Positions 35,622 to 43,490 of a stretch of 64,000 nt of DNA are shown piece after piece (within the stretch, counting starts at the first letter, position 1; each line of letters begins with the position of its first letter). The notes beneath the pieces were generated by a model. The model saw only the letters and a list, made by a program, of their open reading frames with translations. It was not told the DNA's origin and searched no databases. The stretch is from the NCBI RefSeq assembly GCF_030409835.1, contig NZ_JAUFQO010000016.1:718263-782262 (forward strand). The letters run 5' to 3'. The stretch is from Lutimonas halocynthiae (GTDB lineage: Bacteria; Bacteroidota; Bacteroidia; Flavobacteriales; Flavobacteriaceae). The translations under genes were made by a program, and so were the position numbers.

Positions 35622-38078
35622 ATGAGTAAATCAAAAATTATAAATATTGACAATTTGTCACTTCAAAATATTTTGGATGAGGAAGCCGAATTGATTCCGT
35701 TGATGACCCCAGAAGATGAAGAGGAAATAAGAAAAGAAGATGTTCCTGAAGTATTGCCGATTCTTCCTTTGAGAAATACGGTATTATTTCCTGGTGTTGT
35801 AATTCCTATTACAGCCGGTCGCGACCAGTCTATCAAATTGATCAAGGAAGCAAATAAAGGAGATAAAACAATTGGTGTCGTTGCTCAAAAGAATGAAGCA
35901 ACAGAGAATCCGGGAATTGATGACATCTATAAAATCGGTACAGTAGCCAGGATTTTAAAGATTCTTAAAATGCCTGATGGAAATACCATGGTTGTTTTAC
36001 AAGGAAAAAAGCGATTCGAAATAGAAAATCTAGTTGAAGAAGAGCCTTATTTAAAAGCTAAGGTTAAAGAAATTGTTGAGATTATTCCTAAAAAAATCGA
36101 TACTGAATTCAATGCTATCATTGATTCTATAAAGGATATCTCTTTGAGAATAATCAAGGAAAACCCTAATTTACCTACTGAGGCTTCTTTTGCTATTAAG
36201 AACATTCAGAGCAATTCATTTCTTGTCAATTTTGTTTCTTCTAATCTAAACCTCACTACTGAGGAAAAGCAGGAACTGCTCAATATCAGTGGTCTTAAAG
36301 ACAGGGCTTTTGCAACCTTAAAAAAAATGAATAAGGAGCTGCAAAGACTGGAACTCAATAATGATATTCAGTCGAAGGTAAGAGAAGATATGGATCAGCA
36401 ACAGCGCGAGTATTACCTTCATCAGCAAATGAAAACCATTCAGGAAGAATTAGGTGGTGCTTCTCACGATGAAGAAATTGAAGAAATGCGTGAGCTGGCA
36501 AAAAAGAAAAAATGGAGTAAAGAGATTTCTGAAACTTTTGACAAAGAAATTGGAAGGCTTCAAAGAATGAATCCTCAGGTTGCTGAATATTCAGTACAAA
36601 GAAATTACCTTGATTTGCTTCTTGAATTACCATGGCAAGAGTATTCAACTGACCTATTTGATTTAAAAAGGGCTGAGAAAATTCTTGACCGTGATCATTA
36701 TGGTTTAGAAAAAGTAAAGAAACGTATCATTGAACACTTAGCGGTGCTCAAATTAAAAGGAGACATGAAGTCACCTATTATTTGCTTGTATGGACCTCCT
36801 GGAGTAGGTAAAACATCTCTAGGTAAATCGGTAGCAGAATCATTAGGGAGAAAGTATGTCCGCATGTCTCTTGGTGGTATGAGAGATGAGGCTGAGATTC
36901 GAGGGCATAGAAAAACTTATATAGGTGCCTTGCCTGGAAGAATCATTCAAAGTATTAAGAAGGCCGAGACTTCTAACCCGGTTTTCGTACTTGATGAAAT
37001 TGATAAATTGAGTTCAAGTCATAGTGGTGATCCGTCTTCTGCAATGCTGGAAGTTTTGGATCCGGAGCAGAATACAGATTTTTACGATAACTACCTGGAA
37101 GTAGGATATGACTTATCAAAAGTTATGTTTATTGCTACAGCCAATAGTTTATCAACTATTCCATGGGCTTTGAGAGACAGAATGGAAATTATCAATGTAA
37201 GTGGCTATACTGTTGAGGAAAAAGTTGAAATTGGAAAACGCCATTTGTTGCCAAAATTATTAAAAGAACATGGACTAAACAGTTCACATCTTAAAATCGC
37301 AAAAAAGCAACTGGAAAAGATTGCTACGGGTTACACGCGTGAATCAGGTGTAAGAGGACTAGAAAAGAAATTAGCACAAGTGGTCAGGTATGCGGCAAAA
37401 TCAATTGCCATGGAGGAAGAATATAATATCAAAATATCTAATCAGGATATAGAATCAATCCTTGGGGCCTCTCATTTAGAAAGAGATAAGTATGAAAATA
37501 ATGAAATCCCGGGAGTTGTAACAGGTTTAGCCTGGACAAGTGTTGGGGGAGACATATTATTCATTGAATCAATCTTATCTAAAGGGAAAGGTACCTTAAC
37601 CATTACTGGAAATCTTGGAAAAGTAATGAAAGAATCGTCAACGATTGCCCTTGAATATATAAAGGCAAACCTTGAAGAGTTTGGTATTGATTACAAGACG
37701 ATAGTCAATAATAATATTCATATTCACGTTCCTGAAGGAGCTACGCCAAAAGATGGCCCAAGTGCAGGTATAACGATGCTTACCTCTCTTGTTTCTACGT
37801 TAACACAGAGAAAAGTGAAAGCAAGGTTAGCGATGACTGGTGAGATTACTTTAAGAGGTAAGGTGCTTCCTGTTGGGGGAATTAAAGAGAAAATTCTTGC
37901 TGCAAAAAGAGCGAATATTAAGGAAATAATTCTTTGTGCAGAGAATAAAAAAGATGTCGAGGAAATCAATCAAAAATACCTTAAAGGTTTGACATTTCAT
38001 TATATAGATGAAATGAAAGAAGTGATCGAGATCGCATTACTTAAGCAAAAGGTTAAGAATCCGAAAAAATTAGATTAG
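35622..38078 (+). CDS. lon: ATP-dependent protease Lon
   Basis: An 818-residue cytosolic AAA+ serine protease that degrades misfolded and regulatory proteins. The N-terminal substrate domain begins near [20 protein letters not shown], after a 45-residue acidic lead typical of Bacteroidota. The AAA+ module has Walker [12 protein letters not shown] near residue 390 and Walker [10 protein letters not shown]. The protease domain carries the Ser of [11 protein letters not shown] (about residue 714) and the catalytic Lys of [14 protein letters not shown] strong terminator follows directly. Confidence 0.97.
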
Positions 38079-38096
38079 GAGATAGATTAATATATT

Positions 38097-38132
38097 AAAA
38101 ATGCCGTTTTACTTAAAACGGCATTTTTTTTT
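38097..38132 (+). terminator. Rho-independent terminator after lon
   Basis: A perfect hairpin with arms AAATGCCGTTTT and AAAACGGCATTT around an ACTT loop, running straight into a long T-run. It starts about 20 nt after the lon stop. Confidence 0.9.
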
Positions 38133-38161: not shown

Positions 38162-38941
38162 TTGGAAATCCTTCTTGAATTACCCTTATTACTAGGGCTA
38201 TTTATAACTGTTTTATCCATATCATTGGCCGGTATTCTTGTAGCTGTCATTTCAAAGAATTTGATAGCTAACAGATTCAGCAAACAACATGAACGCATAG
38301 GTCGTCTTCTCTTCAGAGTAGTTGCTGGATTGATTGCACTGCTTGTTTCATTGAGTTATGCCAATGAAAGAGTTCGTCAAAGTAAAATTATTAATTCAAT
38401 GGAAGAAGAGGCTTCTATCATTGTGAATTTAAGCATGAGGTTGCATCATTTTGAGTCTGTCGAAGCGAAAAATGCCCTTGAAGAAATAGTTGAATATGTA
38501 GATTTAACTATTAATGATGATTGGAAAAATGTAAGTGAAAATCCTTATTTTTCCAAAGCTACACAATCATTGGTCAAAGCAAATTCTTTTGTTTTAAATA
38601 TGCCGGTTTCCAATGAAACGGAGAGATTTGAAAAACAAATGATAATAAGCCTGCTCAATGACATCATTAAATTGACTCAGATCAGGGTTTATTCTCAACA
38701 TGTCACAACTCCACATTTAATTTACATTCTCTTATGCGGATTGACCATCATGTGGATCTTTTTTAGTGTTTACAAGTTAGATTCTATATCGCTTTCCTTC
38801 CTGTCATTATATAATATACTAATTGCCATTCTAATCTTTTTTATTTTCTCACTTCGCAATCCATTCATGGGCCCCTTAAAAATCAAACCACATTCTTTAA
38901 TCATCGTTAAAACAAAAGGATTTGACCAATACTTTAAGTAA
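38162..38941 (+). CDS. DUF4239 (bestrophin-like) membrane protein, TTG start
   Basis: A 259-residue protein with four hydrophobic helices: two near the N-terminus (LLLGLFITVLSISLAGILVA, LLFRVVAGLIALLVSLSYAN) and two near the C-terminus (LIYILLCGLTIMWIFFSVYK, LYNILIAILIFFIFSL), around a helical soluble middle with DWKNVSENPYF. This fits the DUF4239 pattern. The start is TTG 38162: the frame has a stop at 38150 and no ATG before the first helix. Function unknown; distantly like bestrophin channels. Confidence 0.7.
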   Translation: MEILLELPLLLGLFITVLSISLAGILVAVISKNLIANRFSKQHERIGRLLFRVVAGLIALLVSLSYANERVRQSKIINSMEEEASIIVNLSMRLHHFESVEAKNALEEIVEYVDLTINDDWKNVSENPYFSKATQSLVKANSFVLNMPVSNETERFEKQMIISLLNDIIKLTQIRVYSQHVTTPHLIYILLCGLTIMWIFFSVYKLDSISLSFLSLYNILIAILIFFIFSLRNPFMGPLKIKPHSLIIVKTKGFDQYFK

Positions 38942-39149
38942 GTTTTCTCATTTTTATTATTTTTTGATTTTTGGATATAAGAAAGGAAACAGGCTGAAAA
39001 CCTTCTGAACTAGATTCTTAATTCATCAAACAGCGTCTTTTTGATAAAATAATCTTCATTTTTTTTGACTATATTTACGAGAAGGAGCCGTTTTAATGGT
39101 TGATTTTTAATGAAATCCAACATTATCTAAAGTTCAAAAAAACATGTAA

Positions 39150-40190
39150 ATGAAACATTTATATATCCTCATACTATTATTTCTATCAACCTGCTCGATA
39201 TACGGTCAGAAACCGAAAAAATTATTTCGATCAGATTCTGTACTTGAATTAACGATTACAATGCCTTTAAAAGATGTGATTCTTAAAAGCCAGGAACCAA
39301 CTGAACATAATGCAAGGCTAAGTTATACGGCTGATGATGGAACAGCTTTTAACCATATGATAAAGGTTAAAATGAGAGGTAAAACCCGCGCCAACAAACA
39401 AATTTGCACTTTTCCTCCCCTACAACTTCGGTTTACAAAAAACGATGTTGAAAATTCAGTTTTTAAAGGTCAAAAAAAAATAAAATTGGTAGCGCATTGT
39501 CAAAATGATAAGGATTTTGAAAATTATGTTCAAATTGAATATTTAGTATATAAACTATATCAGCATATAAGCCCTTATAGCTTCAATGTCAGACTATGCA
39601 AAATCACCTATATTGATGAAAAAAAACCCAATCAGAAAAACATGCATTATGGATTTTTAATTGAATCAGTTAGTGATCTAGCCAAAAGAAATGACATGAC
39701 CGTTTTTAAGGGGAAGATCAGAAATCAAGAAGCCATTGACAAAGATAATCTTGACAAACTTGTGTTTTTCCAATTTATGATCGGCAATCTGGATTGGTCT
39801 ATTACAGAAAGACATAATATGAAACTCATTAAGGATGATAAAGGCGCCTTACCCATAGCCGTTCCTTACGATTTTGATTATTCAGGAATTGTAAACACAC
39901 CCTATGCAGTTCCTCCTGAACAACTTTACTTAACGGATGTAAAAACACGGCTATTTAGAGGGTTTTGCAGAAGGGATAAATATCAGAAAACAATTGATTT
40001 TTACAAAAATATTGAGGATGACTTGCGCAATGAAGTCAACAAATTGAGCTCATTAAACGATAAAAGTGTCAATAGTGTAAACAAATATTTAAATAGTTTT
40101 TTTGAGATTATAGAATCAGAAAAATATGTTGACAAGAAAATAGTCAGGGCTTGTAAAGTAAATCATCAACACGCATTTGAACATGACTAA
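39150..40190 (+). CDS. Exported CotH-like putative atypical kinase
   Basis: A 346-residue protein with a signal peptide (YILILLFLSTCSIYGQ). The body follows the CotH order: MRGKTRANKQ at 75-84, a phenylalanine-rich strand then KKIKLVAHCQND at 109-120, ENYVQIEYLVYKLYQ, a strand pair with YGFLIESV (E172), then MIGNLDWSITERHNMKLI (D215, N223) and AVPYDFDYSG (D241, D243). In CotH the GNxDW...N and DFD-type segments bind metal and ATP. The match is remote and my own reading. Its last 8 nt overlap a PPP-type phosphatase gene, so a kinase/phosphatase pair outside the cytoplasm is plausible. Confidence 0.6.
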   Translation: MKHLYILILLFLSTCSIYGQKPKKLFRSDSVLELTITMPLKDVILKSQEPTEHNARLSYTADDGTAFNHMIKVKMRGKTRANKQICTFPPLQLRFTKNDVENSVFKGQKKIKLVAHCQNDKDFENYVQIEYLVYKLYQHISPYSFNVRLCKITYIDEKKPNQKNMHYGFLIESVSDLAKRNDMTVFKGKIRNQEAIDKDNLDKLVFFQFMIGNLDWSITERHNMKLIKDDKGALPIAVPYDFDYSGIVNTPYAVPPEQLYLTDVKTRLFRGFCRRDKYQKTIDFYKNIEDDLRNEVNKLSSLNDKSVNSVNKYLNSFFEIIESEKYVDKKIVRACKVNHQHAFEHD

Positions 40191-41418
40191 AAAAAGAATT
40201 AAACAAGGAATTTATATCGTGACCTCTTCAGTCTTGGTCGTTATGATCATGGGCTTTTTGGGTAAGTCAGATAAGCTTGCTATAGATCAGCAAAATGGAT
40301 TGAAATATGAGGGAACTTATGGTTTATATGTTGAAAAGACAGATCTTTATAGCTTTCACTGGATTACCGAAATAGAAGATATTGGTGAATATCAGGTGCT
40401 CGATCAATCTAATAAAATTATTGTCAGCGGAGAAACTAATTCATCAAGAACACATGTTGTAAAGCTAAAAGACGACATAACTGAGCCATTTACGCTTAAG
40501 TTTGGTGGTCAAAAAACAAGCATGAATAAGGTGAGTATTAGAAAAATCTCTGAACAAGAGAAAACATCTATTAAAAGAGTTGACTCACTGTATGTTGTTG
40601 GAGATGTGCACGGAAGGTATGACCAGATGACCAATCTACTTTTGAAAGCAAATATTATAGATGCAGATTTAAACTGGACTGCCGGAAAATCACATATTGT
40701 TTTTTTGGGAGATGTTTTTGACAGAGGAGATGATGTAACAAAAGTTCTTTGGTTCATTTATGAATTAGAAGCAAAAGCTGCCTTAGTCGGTGGCAAAGTT
40801 CATTTGGTTTTAGGCAACCACGAAATCATGACCATGACCAAAGACCTAAGGTATGTTAGCAGAAAAGAGCGCAACATTGCTGTGGCACATGGCCTGACTT
40901 ACGATGCCTTGTTCCACCCTACCAACTCTTATCTGGGCACTTGGCTCAGAAGTAAAGTCTCATTATTAAAAATTGGTAAAATCGTTTTTGCCCATGGTGG
41001 CATACTTGACCTAGGTCCTATTTCTTTGGAGGAATTCAATAATAAGGCCTATTACTATATGAAAGACCCTATGTATCTTGACGTGATGAAACAATCTCCA
41101 GACAGCACAAAATACGATGTAAATAGTTGGTCTGAGATGAGGTTCTTTTTCTATAATAGTGAAGGCCCATATTGGTATAGAGGCTATGTTAATTCAGATA
41201 CCCTTGCTCCTCAATTAAATGCAATGCTAAGTAAACACGAATCAAAAATTCATGTCGTTGCACACACAACTTTAGAAACAATTACTGAAAAATATGATGG
41301 TAAATTACTCACTACAGATCTAAATGACGCCGCAACAGAGCTATTGTTTTTAATTAGACGCAAGAATAAATATAAAAGGTATAAAATTGACAGTGAAGGT
41401 ATTAAAACTGAATTATAG
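40183..41418 (+). CDS. Membrane-anchored PPP-family metallophosphatase
   Basis: A 411-residue protein from ATG 40183. One N-terminal helix (GIYIVTSSVLVVMIMGFLG) anchors or exports it, a small beta domain follows (about 40-125), then a PPP-type calcineurin-like phosphatase with GDVHG (140-144), GDVFDRG (176-182), GNHE (211-214), the His of VFAHGGI (H271) and a late VVAHTTLE. These are the standard di-metal and phosphate-binding motifs of Ser/Thr protein phosphatases and of related bacterial (Shewanella-like) enzymes. It overlaps the CotH-like gene by 8 nt, so the two are likely translated together. Confidence 0.88.
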   Translation: MTKKRIKQGIYIVTSSVLVVMIMGFLGKSDKLAIDQQNGLKYEGTYGLYVEKTDLYSFHWITEIEDIGEYQVLDQSNKIIVSGETNSSRTHVVKLKDDITEPFTLKFGGQKTSMNKVSIRKISEQEKTSIKRVDSLYVVGDVHGRYDQMTNLLLKANIIDADLNWTAGKSHIVFLGDVFDRGDDVTKVLWFIYELEAKAALVGGKVHLVLGNHEIMTMTKDLRYVSRKERNIAVAHGLTYDALFHPTNSYLGTWLRSKVSLLKIGKIVFAHGGILDLGPISLEEFNNKAYYYMKDPMYLDVMKQSPDSTKYDVNSWSEMRFFFYNSEGPYWYRGYVNSDTLAPQLNAMLSKHESKIHVVAHTTLETITEKYDGKLLTTDLNDAATELLFLIRRKNKYKRYKIDSEGIKTEL

Positions 41419-41528: not shown

Positions 41529-43490
41529 ATGCAATTCAAATATCCAGAGGTTTTATTTTTTCTGTTCCTTCTTCTTATTCCACTTCTTATTCATTTATTT
41601 CAACTGCAAAAATTCAAAAAAGAGGCATTCACCAATGTTCGATTTTTAAAAGAAATAGAGCTTGAGACCAGGAAAAGTTCCAAGCTTAAAAAATTACTCA
41701 TTCTTTTATCAAGACTCTTGGCTTTTACCGCCTTAATAATGGCGTTTGCACAACCTTTTATCAATAAAAATGAAAACCTCGATAAAAGGGAGAGTATTTA
41801 TTATTTGGATAATTCTTTAAGCATGCAAATCAAAGCTGCAACAGGCATTGATCAATTGCAGTTTAATAAAAACCATTTATTGGATAAAGCAGCCAGTATT
41901 GAAGGCATACAAACTCTTTTGTCAAACCAAAATCTTCATGGTGAACTTGATTCAAAAACTTTTAAAAACAGACTTGTAAACCTCGATTATTATCCAATTC
42001 ACAAAAATATAAATCAAATCTTATTAGAGATAAACAGCAATCATAAGGGGAAAAGAAATACTTTATTTGACATATTTTTATTGTCTGATTTTCAAAATAT
42101 TAATGGCTTAATTGACACCAATTTAATAGATGAAAAACAACAATACAACTTTGTAGTTCCTGCTAATATCGAACATAAAAACATATCGATTGACAGTATC
42201 TGGATAGCTGAAAGAAACGCTAAAGACATCACTTTAATATCACGATTAACAAGTCATGGATTAAACATTGATGATTTAAGCGTCTCTCTCAATTTAAATG
42301 AAGTATTATACGGAAAAAGCACTGTAAATCTCCTTGCAGGAACAAGCAAAGAAATTGTCTTCAAGATTCCGGCTACCGGCGCAACTTCAGGGAAAATTGC
42401 AATTTCAGATCATTCACTAAATTTTGACAATGAGCTCTTCTTCAGCATTCCGAAAAGTTACAGAACAAAAGTCCTGGTTATTGGTCGTAAAAGTGATTTT
42501 CTAAATCGAATATACCAAAAGGATGCTTTTGAATTAACTAAAGTATCTTATAAAGACTTAGATCAAAGTCAAATCACCAAACAAGATTTGATCATTTTGG
42601 ATGAGCTTGAAACGCTATCAAACCCTTTGATTCAGACTTTGAATTCGTTTGTTCAAAACAAAGGTAAGCTTGTGATCATTCCGGCAACAACTAGCGAGAT
42701 TGGTAGTTATAATAAACTGTTACAGTCGTTTGATGCAGGTAGCATATTGGAAAAATTCAATGCTGATAAAAAGATTAGCCGGATCAACTATGAACATCCG
42801 TTTTTTAATAATGTATTTGAAAAAGAAATATACAATTTTCAGTACCCTATACTTACTGAAGGTTTTACGATGCTATTAAAAAATGCAAGTCCCTTGCTCC
42901 AATTTGATGATCTAACAGATTTTGCTTCAGAGATTAAATATAAGGATGGCAAAGTCTATGTTATCGCATCCCCCCTATCGGGCCCTGGAAACAAGTTTTC
43001 TAATTCGCCCCTTGTAGTCCCTTTATTTTATAATTTCTCTTTAGAGGGCCAGAATAATGAGGCCATCTATAAGACTATCGGTCAAACTAATCATATGATG
43101 GTCCAATCAGCTAATACTGGAGACCAGCCCTTAAAAATTGTTAGAAATGAGCTGGAATTCATACCATTACAAAGCAAGAATAACGATAAAATAAGGGTTA
43201 CAACTAATGACTACCCGCTTACAGCCGGAATCTATGAGTTCAAGTCCAATGAGCAAATAATTGAAAAAGTAGCTTATAATTATAATCGCAAAGAAAGTGA
43301 TCTAACGTATCAGTCACTTCAACCTTTGGTTGATCAATATAGCAACATTTATCTTTACGAATCTATAGGCAAAGCGATTAAAGACGGAAATCAAAGGAAC
43401 AATAATAAAAATTTGTGGCAATTATTTATTATTTTTGCTCTGGTTTTTTTAGTCTTGGAAATTCTACTTCAGAAATTTTTGAAGAATTAA
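41529..43490 (+). CDS. BatA-domain (aerotolerance-type) membrane protein
   Basis: A 653-residue inner-membrane protein. The N-terminal BatA region is FKYPEVLFFLFLLLIPLLIH, with RFLKEIELETRKSSKLKKLL and a second helix LLILLSRLLAFTALIMAFAQ. A long periplasmic part follows, beginning with a vWA-like strand ESIYYLDNSLSMQIKAATG that keeps a D-N-S-x-S MIDAS-like motif. A C-terminal helix (LWQLFIIFALVFLVLEILLQ) ends in basic residues. Role unknown; in flavobacteria it commonly precedes a dihydroorotase-like gene, as here (36 nt gap). Confidence 0.82.
   Translation: MQFKYPEVLFFLFLLLIPLLIHLFQLQKFKKEAFTNVRFLKEIELETRKSSKLKKLLILLSRLLAFTALIMAFAQPFINKNENLDKRESIYYLDNSLSMQIKAATGIDQLQFNKNHLLDKAASIEGIQTLLSNQNLHGELDSKTFKNRLVNLDYYPIHKNINQILLEINSNHKGKRNTLFDIFLLSDFQNINGLIDTNLIDEKQQYNFVVPANIEHKNISIDSIWIAERNAKDITLISRLTSHGLNIDDLSVSLNLNEVLYGKSTVNLLAGTSKEIVFKIPATGATSGKIAISDHSLNFDNELFFSIPKSYRTKVLVIGRKSDFLNRIYQKDAFELTKVSYKDLDQSQITKQDLIILDELETLSNPLIQTLNSFVQNKGKLVIIPATTSEIGSYNKLLQSFDAGSILEKFNADKKISRINYEHPFFNNVFEKEIYNFQYPILTEGFTMLLKNASPLLQFDDLTDFASEIKYKDGKVYVIASPLSGPGNKFSNSPLVVPLFYNFSLEGQNNEAIYKTIGQTNHMMVQSANTGDQPLKIVRNELEFIPLQSKNNDKIRVTTNDYPLTAGIYEFKSNEQIIEKVAYNYNRKESDLTYQSLQPLVDQYSNIYLYESIGKAIKDGNQRNNNKNLWQLFIIFALVFLVLEILLQKFLKN

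Follow-up and report, generated by a model that had tools for sequence, protein, structure and literature searches.

Layout of the locus

In the window, by which we mean the whole 64,000-nucleotide stretch of Lutimonas halocynthiae DNA analyzed here, three forward-strand genes occupy positions 38162 to 41418. The first (38162 to 38941) encodes a bestrophin-like membrane protein of 259 residues, with a TTG start in the ORF list and a match to Pfam PF14023 at E 1.2e-25. The second (39150 to 40190) encodes a CotH-type kinase-like protein of 346 residues, P0001, so assigned from its predicted fold, profile comparison and invariant residues, and the third (40183 to 41418) a predicted Shewanella-like PPP phosphatase (SLP) of 411 residues, P0002, assigned from its PPP motifs and nearest solved relatives. 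By the ORF coordinates, the second and third genes overlap by 8 nt (40183 to 40190) with ATG 40183 as the phosphatase start codon and by 14 nt with TTG 40177; the strands, lengths and 8-nt overlap given in an earlier, sequence-only reading of this DNA agree with the ORF calls. That reading was silent on the bestrophin-like gene directly upstream of the kinase-like gene.

A terminator-like hairpin of 14 pairs followed by a T run (38097 to 38128, forward strand) lies between the bestrophin-like gene and a gene ending at 38078, which by eye we take to be Lon. The hairpin suggests that a new transcription unit begins at the bestrophin-like gene; a count of one such hairpin in the region is not significant in itself, because shuffled sequences average 1.7. 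A Bacteroidetes-type promoter pattern has no forward-strand match near the unit at 38162 to 41418, and its 8 matches in the window against 4.9 expected are not above chance.

The kinase-like protein and the phosphatase

The AlphaFold model of P0001 (pLDDT 90.6, pTM 0.90) has a CotH-type kinase fold, in keeping with the assignment proposed in the sequence-only reading: the sole Foldseek matches with E ≤0.001 are the CotH kinase entries 5jd9 (E 1.4e-9) and 5jda (E 3.0e-9), with a probability of 1.00 and TM ≈0.5. The Pfam CotH model (PF08757) gives no match to P0001 at E up to 1 and finds none of the three kinase-like copies in the genome; the same model does recover a genuine CotH at another locus of this genome (L092, E 3.5e-42). 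In a scan of P0001, the family went unrecognized by Pfam and NCBIfam models alike; we set aside as chance its weak, sub-cut-off Pfam matches to RGS and SAICAR synthetase and its phmmer matches in the PDB (E 0.8 or worse). An hmmsearch with the kinase-like A1 profile returned no match among PDB sequences, those of CotH among them. Profile–profile comparison (hhalign) with canonical CotH yields E 1.6e-4 in local mode (probability 50) and E 5e-8 in global mode (probability 92.9), with all decoys (one reversed, 8 column-shuffled and 10 neighbor-family) at E 0.014 or worse, so that P0001 is, as judged by profile, a remote homolog of CotH. Because the CotH-kinase fold and an invariant catalytic set are found together with no Pfam CotH match, we place the family as a sister subfamily of CotH.

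The motif order follows that of Bacillus cereus CotH, with N213-L-D215…H222-N223…P-Y-D241-F-D243 of P0001 corresponding to N222-F-D224…H228-N229…P-W-D247-Y-D249 (numbering read off the printed chain of the solved structure). Twelve residues (R76, G77, R80, C86, K112, C117, E130, N213, D215, N223, D241 and D243) are invariant in 114 aligned rows, which count the window gene and the two own-genome copies twice, and the CotH-like landmarks noted from sequence are thus real. From the alignment, K112 (39483 to 39485) is a candidate ATP-binding lysine, and E130 (39537 to 39539), which lines up with a Glu conserved in canonical CotH, a candidate helix-C glutamate. D215 (39792 to 39794) is taken as the equivalent of the CotH catalytic Asp from the alignment, profile comparison and CotH chain; N223 (39816 to 39818) and D241 (39870 to 39872) are taken as the metal-binding Asn and Asp from the alignment and the CotH chain. 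CotH is described as keeping residues equivalent to D166, N171 and D184 of PKA (PMC12189002), of which D215, N223 and D241 are the predicted counterparts in P0001. The D228Q variant of Bacillus subtilis CotH is described as an inactive form (PMC7821199), and D228 probably occupies the position of D215.

An N-terminal hydrophobic stretch (residues 1–20 by eye; 39150 to 39209) is a probable signal peptide, and a stretch of this kind is present in 105 of 112 full-length subfamily rows versus 57% of 446 other ORFs of >300 aa. Judged by eye and by hydropathy, the kinase-like protein is probably exported, as the earlier reading had it, and P0002 probably is too.

P0002 comprises an N-terminal hydrophobic segment, an uncharacterized region and a catalytic domain that begins near residue 121. 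The three PPP motifs reported from sequence (GDVHG, GDVFDRG and GNHE) are all present, and the best solved relatives are Shewanella phosphatase entries (E 3e-44 to 7e-44), which together identify P0002 as a putative SLP. P0002 is a putative membrane-anchored protein, its N-terminal segment being either a membrane anchor or a signal that is cleaved off. Ser/Thr specificity cannot be taken for granted, because the Shewanella enzyme is reported to be strictly specific for tyrosine (PMC5658161). A D-x-H sequence at the first metal motif occurs in 13 of 14 SLPs paired with a kinase-like gene (the exception is L086; L212 was left out), and an unpaired SLP of the same genome has SDIES in its place. 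We rejected D-x-H as a mark of pairing, since several unpaired SLPs (L098 and L101–L103) keep the His.

Gene neighborhoods across genomes

Neighborhoods were compared at 66 collected loci, in a family sample of 239 genomes, in a class sample of 395 genomes and in a set of the 60 nearest relatives, where 21 genomes other than the window genome share its genus. The 66-locus count ignores ORFs under 100 aa and kinase-like matches of 150 bits or less and leaves out duplicate loci (L004, L094–L097, L099 and L100). The class-sample search gave 30 loci from 48 matches in 20 genomes, with L172 added from a further search, and 28 new loci came from the family sample, among whose 32 positive genomes G000 and G413 had loci already and G471 and G580 gave none. 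Loci from these genome-sample searches carry ≈1.5 kb of flank on each side, and L202, L217, L218 and L226 correspond to G029, G026, G011 and G025 of the relatives set.

The searched phosphatase families were SLP, PafA, PhoA, other AP-type and purple-acid-like. One of these lies within two genes of the kinase-like gene at 37 of the 66 collected loci and 17 of the 28 family-sample loci, and likewise within two genes in 9 of the 19 positive class-sample genomes other than the window's own. The class-sample neighbor tally includes one Metallophos neighbor without an assigned locus. The remaining 29 and 11 loci have no searched-family phosphatase within two genes, with flanks that are short or cut in many cases; the other two kinase-like copies of this genome (L141 and L160) have none beside them within ≈1.5 kb. 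Phosphatases make up 33 of 129 directly adjacent genes versus 0 of 129 genes three to four places away (Fisher 2e-11, with the same profiles applied to both sets and kinship among loci ignored), a contrast tilted toward the near set because near neighbors were the source of the partner profiles. The far control was drawn at random from 216 proteins, those over 900 aa being left out, and contains two sulfatase-family proteins by Pfam. Canonical CotH genes yielded 52 neighbors at 30 of 31 loci (L114 gave none), and the families listed for these neighbors, 25 of 74, contain no phosphatase.

On a 113-row tree, the phosphatase label requires at least 20 changes and SLP alone at least 8. The tree also leaves out truncated loci (L020, L024, L091, L147 and L163), duplicates with the same genes as L141 and L160 (L002 and L003) and two partial rows (from L144 and L165); L025 was named for exclusion and was absent from the rows anyway. 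Two pairs of proteins on the tree are identical (L016/L079 and L012/L062).

A bestrophin-like gene neighbors the kinase-like gene at 42 of the 66 collected loci and 25 of the 28 family-sample loci. In L007, L008 and L026, too, a member of the window gene's cluster precedes the kinase-like gene, and a second, divergent type has a predicted KpBest fold (TM 0.74 to the top match) and weak PF25539 matches below cut-off. The two clusters do not match each other in profile comparison; each belongs to the bestrophin family or fold, the window gene by PF14023 and the divergent cluster by its fold. The arrangement that recurs more widely is a kinase-like gene with a bestrophin-like gene as its neighbor and a phosphatase, drawn from any of several families, close by.

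The exact kinase-like/SLP pair is less general, and we dropped its general conservation as a claim after the class- and family-sample counts. With a strong SLP defined by a score over 200 bits, the family sample has the kinase-like gene in 32 genomes, a strong SLP in 35 and both in 7, compared with 4.7 expected (Fisher p 0.28, chance level), and both genes occur in 2 genomes of the class sample (p 0.057, marginal). Among the 60 nearest relatives, the figures are 14, 14 and 11 (Fisher p 3e-7). The pair is adjacent or one gene apart in 7 of these 11 genomes and in 3 of the 7 family-sample genomes, counts that speak in part against this exact pair by the standard of the sequence-only reading, for which rare adjacency would be a refutation. 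The linkage itself takes several forms: overlapping same-strand pairs (L001, L006, L007, L008, L026, L086 and L172), convergent pairs (L042, L068, L070 and L212), bestrophin-like and SLP genes divergent from the kinase-like gene (L009, L010 and L017) and one kinase-like/SLP fusion of 682 aa (L072).

A possible extracytoplasmic module and its known relatives

We favor reading the unit at 38162 to 41418, at about even odds, as an extracytoplasmic kinase/phosphatase module with exchangeable phosphatases. In such a module, the bestrophin-like protein would sit in the inner membrane, the exported CotH-type kinase would phosphorylate an extracytoplasmic substrate, either a protein or something else on the surface, and the exported, probably membrane-held SLP would strip the phosphate from that substrate; the bestrophin-like protein would contribute to this process, perhaps as a passage for an anion or phosphate donor. 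The three gene families, kinase fold, invariant catalytic residues, phosphatase metal-site motifs, recurrent neighbors and single fusion are computed; from them we infer that both enzymes may be active and exported and oppose each other on a common substrate. Several points count against the module. SLP is the partner at just 6 of the 66 collected loci, the fusion included, and at 2 of the 28 family loci; many SLPs stand alone; convergent pairs cannot share a transcript; and the bacterial periplasm is not generally known to contain ATP.

The same neighborhoods could instead reflect phosphorus economy, with the kinase-like protein and the phosphatases taking part in phosphate acquisition or a polyphosphate process on different substrates, an explanation we consider unlikely. 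Nearness may reflect phosphorus metabolism because PafA and PhoA are known phosphate-scavenging enzymes, described as releasing phosphate in Flavobacterium (PMC8812569, PMC8115612). DUF4956 adjoins the kinase-like gene in L143 (where the gene before DUF4956 is part of a transketolase) and L144, polyphosphate polymerase and DUF4956 are reported as neighbors of canonical CotH (PMC7112168), and two histidine-kinase-type and two sigma-factor neighbors occur in the class sample. PafA, however, is described as constitutive and phosphate-insensitive, no Pst or PhoU appears among the neighbor families listed (25 of 72 near, 25 of 136 far), and the 15 window genes scanned contain neither these nor DUF4956 or polyphosphate polymerase. 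The fusion and overlapping genes also argue for a tighter link, and SLPs are not known to scavenge phosphate. Some proteins with kinase-like folds are kinases of small molecules or lipids, and the kinase-like protein might phosphorylate cell-surface LPS, exopolysaccharide or lipid that the phosphatase then trims. Exopolysaccharide operons are reported to carry canonical CotH genes (PMC7112168), the own-genome copy L141 neighbors a gene for a PagL-type lipid A deacylase, and single glycosyltransferase neighbors (L034, and two of heptosyltransferase type) occur; we nevertheless think this reading rather improbable, as no glycan family recurs among the 25 adjacent-gene families listed and CotH, a protein kinase, is the best fold match.

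It is very improbable, in our view, that the kinase fold serves another nucleotide-dependent transfer (e.g., of AMP) or is inactive, with the phosphatases independent of it. We know of no activity for the subfamily, and Pfam CotH does not recognize it, but a catalytic set invariant in 114 rows is unlike a pseudoenzyme. Hardly credible, and already disfavored, is a pairing by chance or inherited gene order without function. Many loci do come from related Flavobacteriaceae with common gene order, and the exact pair is uncommon; the variety of partner families and arrangements, the near/far contrast, the fusion and the phosphatase-free families listed for canonical CotH neighbors all argue against it.

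Beyond the extracytoplasmic module at this locus, we tentatively entertain, with rather more doubt than belief, an undescribed Bacteroidota system of reversible phosphorylation, in which a subfamily of exported CotH-type kinases would act with a bestrophin-like channel supplying donor or anion and with swapped exported phosphatases. Its phosphatase slot would have been refilled repeatedly from two superfamilies, the metallophosphatases (SLP, purple-acid-like) and the alkaline phosphatase superfamily (PafA, PhoA). To our knowledge, reversible phosphorylation outside the Gram-negative cytoplasm has received little study, one reason being the lack of a known phosphate donor in that compartment. 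With its intact active site, recurrent phosphatase slot and recurrent channel-like neighbor, the kinase-like family offers a testable system, a lead on the donor problem and a hint at the function of proteins that Pfam and NCBIfam models failed to recognize. Among the matches listed in the open-licence literature (titles and beginnings of abstracts), we found no description of a CotH-type kinase/phosphatase pairing.

The closest known system is CotH itself (PF08757), described as a kinase of surface proteins of the Bacillus spore coat (PMC7821199), which P0001 resembles in predicted fold, motif order and D/N/D active-site residues. The subfamily differs in lacking a Pfam match, in its low identity (11% in the profile alignment, 13–14% in Foldseek), in its probable export in a Gram-negative organism, in the invariant Cys pair C86/C117 and in recurrent phosphatase and bestrophin-like neighbors that are absent among the families listed for canonical CotH. 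Clusters of CotH, polyphosphate polymerase and DUF4956 (PMC7112168) share a CotH-type gene and, in two genomes (L143 and L144), DUF4956, whereas the loci described here harbor phosphatase and bestrophin-like genes and no polyphosphate polymerase in the stretches scanned. P0002 shares its PPP motifs and catalytic domain with Shelph/SLP (PDB 1v73, 2z72 and 2zbm; E 3e-44) and departs from it in an extra N-terminal region with a hydrophobic segment and in the pairing of its gene with a CotH-type kinase. The divergent neighbor, a putative channel, has the predicted fold of bacterial bestrophins (KpBest, 4wd7), at 14–16% identity, and the window gene matches PF14023. Finally, the KKP kinase-kinase-phosphatase module of the Pf prophage (PMC11341870) likewise joins kinase genes with a phosphatase gene; KKP is described there as prophage Ser/Thr kinases, whereas the proteins considered here are probably exported.

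Gene layout and the CotH-type kinase-like protein

The sequence-only reading described two overlapping genes, and re-reading of the open reading frames bears this out. The gene for the 346-residue kinase-like protein (39150–40190, + strand) stops inside the gene for the 411-residue phosphatase, which starts at ATG 40183, giving an 8-nt overlap, or at TTG 40177, and extends to 41418 on the same strand. Directly upstream, also on the + strand, lies a gene for a 259-residue bestrophin-like protein (PF14023, E 1.2e-25); a gap of 208 nt separates it from the kinase-like gene, and a terminator-like hairpin at 38097–38128 precedes it. The next gene after the phosphatase gene, at 41529, encodes a BatA-type protein.

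The kinase-like protein has no credible match in Pfam or NCBIfam, nor among PDB sequences in searches with the single sequence or with the profile of its relatives (A1). An AlphaFold model built from alignment A1, with 67 relatives, has a pLDDT of 90.6 and a pTM of 0.90; its best Foldseek matches, and the only ones at or below 0.001, are the two entries for the CotH kinase of Bacillus cereus (E 1.4e-9 and 3.0e-9, TM ≈0.5), followed by PI3K and CtkA kinases. Comparison with a profile of 31 canonical CotH proteins (PF08757) from the same genome class, comprising 34 aligned stretches before gap filtering, gave an E value of 1.6e-4 (probability 50) in local mode and 5e-8 (probability 92.9) in global mode; all decoys for the local value were weaker (reversed profile, 0.04; eight column shuffles, at least 0.059; ten neighbour families, at least 0.014). 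N213-x-D215, N223, D241, and D243 correspond to the same motifs in the solved CotH chain, and K112 and E130 are candidates for the ATP-binding Lys and the helix-C Glu, respectively. All seven residues are unchanged across 114 aligned rows, a set that counts the window gene and two further copies from its own genome twice each. CotH is said to retain equivalents of PKA D166, N171, and D184 (PMC12189002), and its D228Q variant is cited as an inactive form (PMC7821199). C86 and C117 are invariant to the same degree as the catalytic positions, which would fit a disulfide bond in a protein that leaves the cytoplasm. The CotH likeness seen by the sequence-only reading is retained in predicted fold, remote profile homology, and catalytic positions but not in a Pfam CotH match, and because Pfam returns no such match, we call the protein a member of a CotH-type kinase-like subfamily outside PF08757.

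The Shewanella-like phosphatase and the exact pair

In its catalytic domain, the window phosphatase has the Shewanella phosphatase as its nearest solved relative (2z72, 1v73, and 2zbm; E 3.1e-44 to 7.4e-44), with BSU1 (3e-7), ApaH, and PP5 far behind. For the Shelph group, the bacterial relative has been described as acting strictly on phosphotyrosine (PMC5658161). Of 33 rows of Shewanella-like PPP phosphatases (SLPs), some genes being entered twice, 32 carry an N-terminal hydrophobic stretch. A 914-residue protein containing an SLP domain (L176:1117–3861, − strand) seems, by eye, to end in a type IX sorting tail, so secretion to the cell surface is possible for some SLPs. In a 661-residue protein (L106:331–2316), the SLP domain follows ankyrin-like repeats recognized by eye, and long SLP frames also occur in genomes G516 and G452. 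Stand-alone SLPs at L005, L104, L107, L108, L170, and L171 (L170 and L005 being the same gene) carry SDIES in place of D-x-H in the first metal motif; by eye, a LytS-like sensor gene adjoins those at L005 and L107.

Co-occurrence and adjacency counts in three genome samples indicate that the exact kinase-like/SLP pair is uncommon, yet real. Among the 60 nearest relatives, 14 harbor a kinase-like gene, 14 an SLP match, and 11 both (p 3e-7, in a sample full of the window's own genus), with the pair adjacent or one gene apart in seven of these 11. Across 395 genomes of the class, the corresponding numbers are 20 with a kinase-like gene, 59 with any A2 match, eight with a strong SLP (>200 bits), and two with both genes (p 0.057), adjacent in each, one being the window's own genome. 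The family sample of 239 genomes contains 32 with a kinase-like gene (one as fragments), 55 with any A2 match, and 35 with a strong SLP; seven have both, against 4.7 expected (p 0.28), and the pair is adjacent or one gene apart in three of the seven, the majority of strong SLPs being sited away from the kinase-like gene. General conservation of the exact pair is not supported: adjacency recurs among relatives and in the family, but co-occurrence in the family sample is at chance level. A single 682-residue open frame (L072:4258–6306) fuses an SLP-type PPP domain to a CotH-type kinase-like domain; it derives from a Saprospiraceae MAG and has a PycTM-type membrane protein gene upstream.

Neighbours of the kinase-like gene

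We collected 66 loci by sequence from genome contigs and scored the searched phosphatase families. The kinase-like gene has a phosphatase no more than one gene away in 34 loci (fusion L072 counted), and in 37 when a distance of two genes is allowed: PafA in 11, PhoA-type in 11, SLP in six, a phosphodiesterase/sulfatase-type AP-superfamily protein in four (Pontibacter), another AP-type protein, two genes away, in three, and a TPM-domain protein in two, the last a weak case because a TPM domain is no proof of a phosphatase. One PafA neighbour passes the NCBIfam equivalog (657 bits versus a cut-off of 650), and one PhoA-type neighbour matches PF00245 (E 1.9e-68). In the class and family samples, a phosphatase neighbour is found within two genes in nine of 19 positive genomes other than the window's own and in 17 of 28 loci (PhoA-type 11, PafA 4, and SLP 2), respectively; there is some overlap between samples. 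In G073 and G273, which are among the nine class genomes, a purple-acid-like metallophosphatase gene overlaps the kinase-like gene. The window's own genome encodes two more kinase-like copies (L141 and L160) and a canonical CotH (L092); none of the searched phosphatases lies alongside L141 or L160 within the 1.5 kb seen, and one of these copies adjoins a PagL-type gene. TANGO2-type genes adjoin the kinase-like gene in L148, L152, and L153.

As a control, Pfam (E 1e-5) assigns Sulfatase to 23, Phosphodiest to 16, Alk_phosphatase to 11, and Metallophos to five of 129 adjacent genes, in overlapping sets, versus Sulfatase to two of 129 genes three or four places off, for which the list of 25 out of 136 families contains none of the other three. 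Our own phosphatase profiles, built from near neighbours of the kinase-like gene, match 33 of 129 adjacent and none of 129 distant genes, counted without correction for relatedness among the loci. The 52 neighbours of canonical CotH genes include no phosphatase among the 25 of 74 families listed, and our profiles have no match in the 31 canonical CotH loci. Among 53 genes next to kinase-like genes in the class sample, Metallophos is assigned to four, Phosphodiest to two, Sulfatase to two, and Alk_phosphatase to one. On a quick tree of 113 kinase-like rows, with 40 of 108 inner branches open and long branches meeting (L086 with L158 and L072 with L172), the phosphatase label changes at least 20 times and the SLP label at least eight; these changes include losses and rows with flanks too short for a partner and are therefore not gain counts.

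Upstream of the kinase-like gene, 41 of the 66 contig loci carry a divergent membrane protein gene and L026 a same-strand one; 25 of 28 family loci have a bestrophin-like neighbour. Over 48 rows, the median length of the divergent gap is 56 nt. The model of the divergent protein (pLDDT 86.0, pTM 0.72) resembles KpBest-type structures; its best match, 6ivn (E 2.8e-6, TM 0.74), bears a title that says no more than membrane protein mutant, whereas the two hits after it are named as Klebsiella bestrophin. Profile comparison gave no match between the window-type cluster and the divergent-type one. In L035, L043, L059, L060, L072, L077, L155, and L156, a PycTM-type membrane protein gene lies no more than two genes from the kinase-like gene; in some lineages it perhaps stands in for the bestrophin-like one, although L059 and L077 carry both.

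Proposed function and relation to known systems

The likeliest reading of these loci is a kinase acting outside the cytoplasm together with a phosphatase that opposes it, with the phosphatase slot taken by differing families. An exported CotH-type kinase would phosphorylate its substrate there, and the partner, whatever its family, would oppose it; the fold, residues, and neighbourhoods come from computation, and we infer catalysis, export, a shared substrate, opposition, the donor, and the channel's part. The main rival is that the kinase-like protein and the phosphatases serve phosphorus economy together, since PafA and PhoA both release phosphate (PMC8812569 and PMC8115612) and DUF4956 is present at two kinase-like loci, although no Pst or PhoU family appears among the 25 families listed per neighbour set. 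Among the papers listed from the open-licence literature searched, we found no description of the kinase-like/phosphatase pairing. In L143 and L144, a DUF4956 gene, the kinase-like gene, and a purple-acid-like metallophosphatase gene stand side by side; DUF4956 is reported next to CotH and polyphosphate polymerase (PMC7112168), and a link of these two loci to such CotH/polyphosphate polymerase/DUF4956 clusters is possible.
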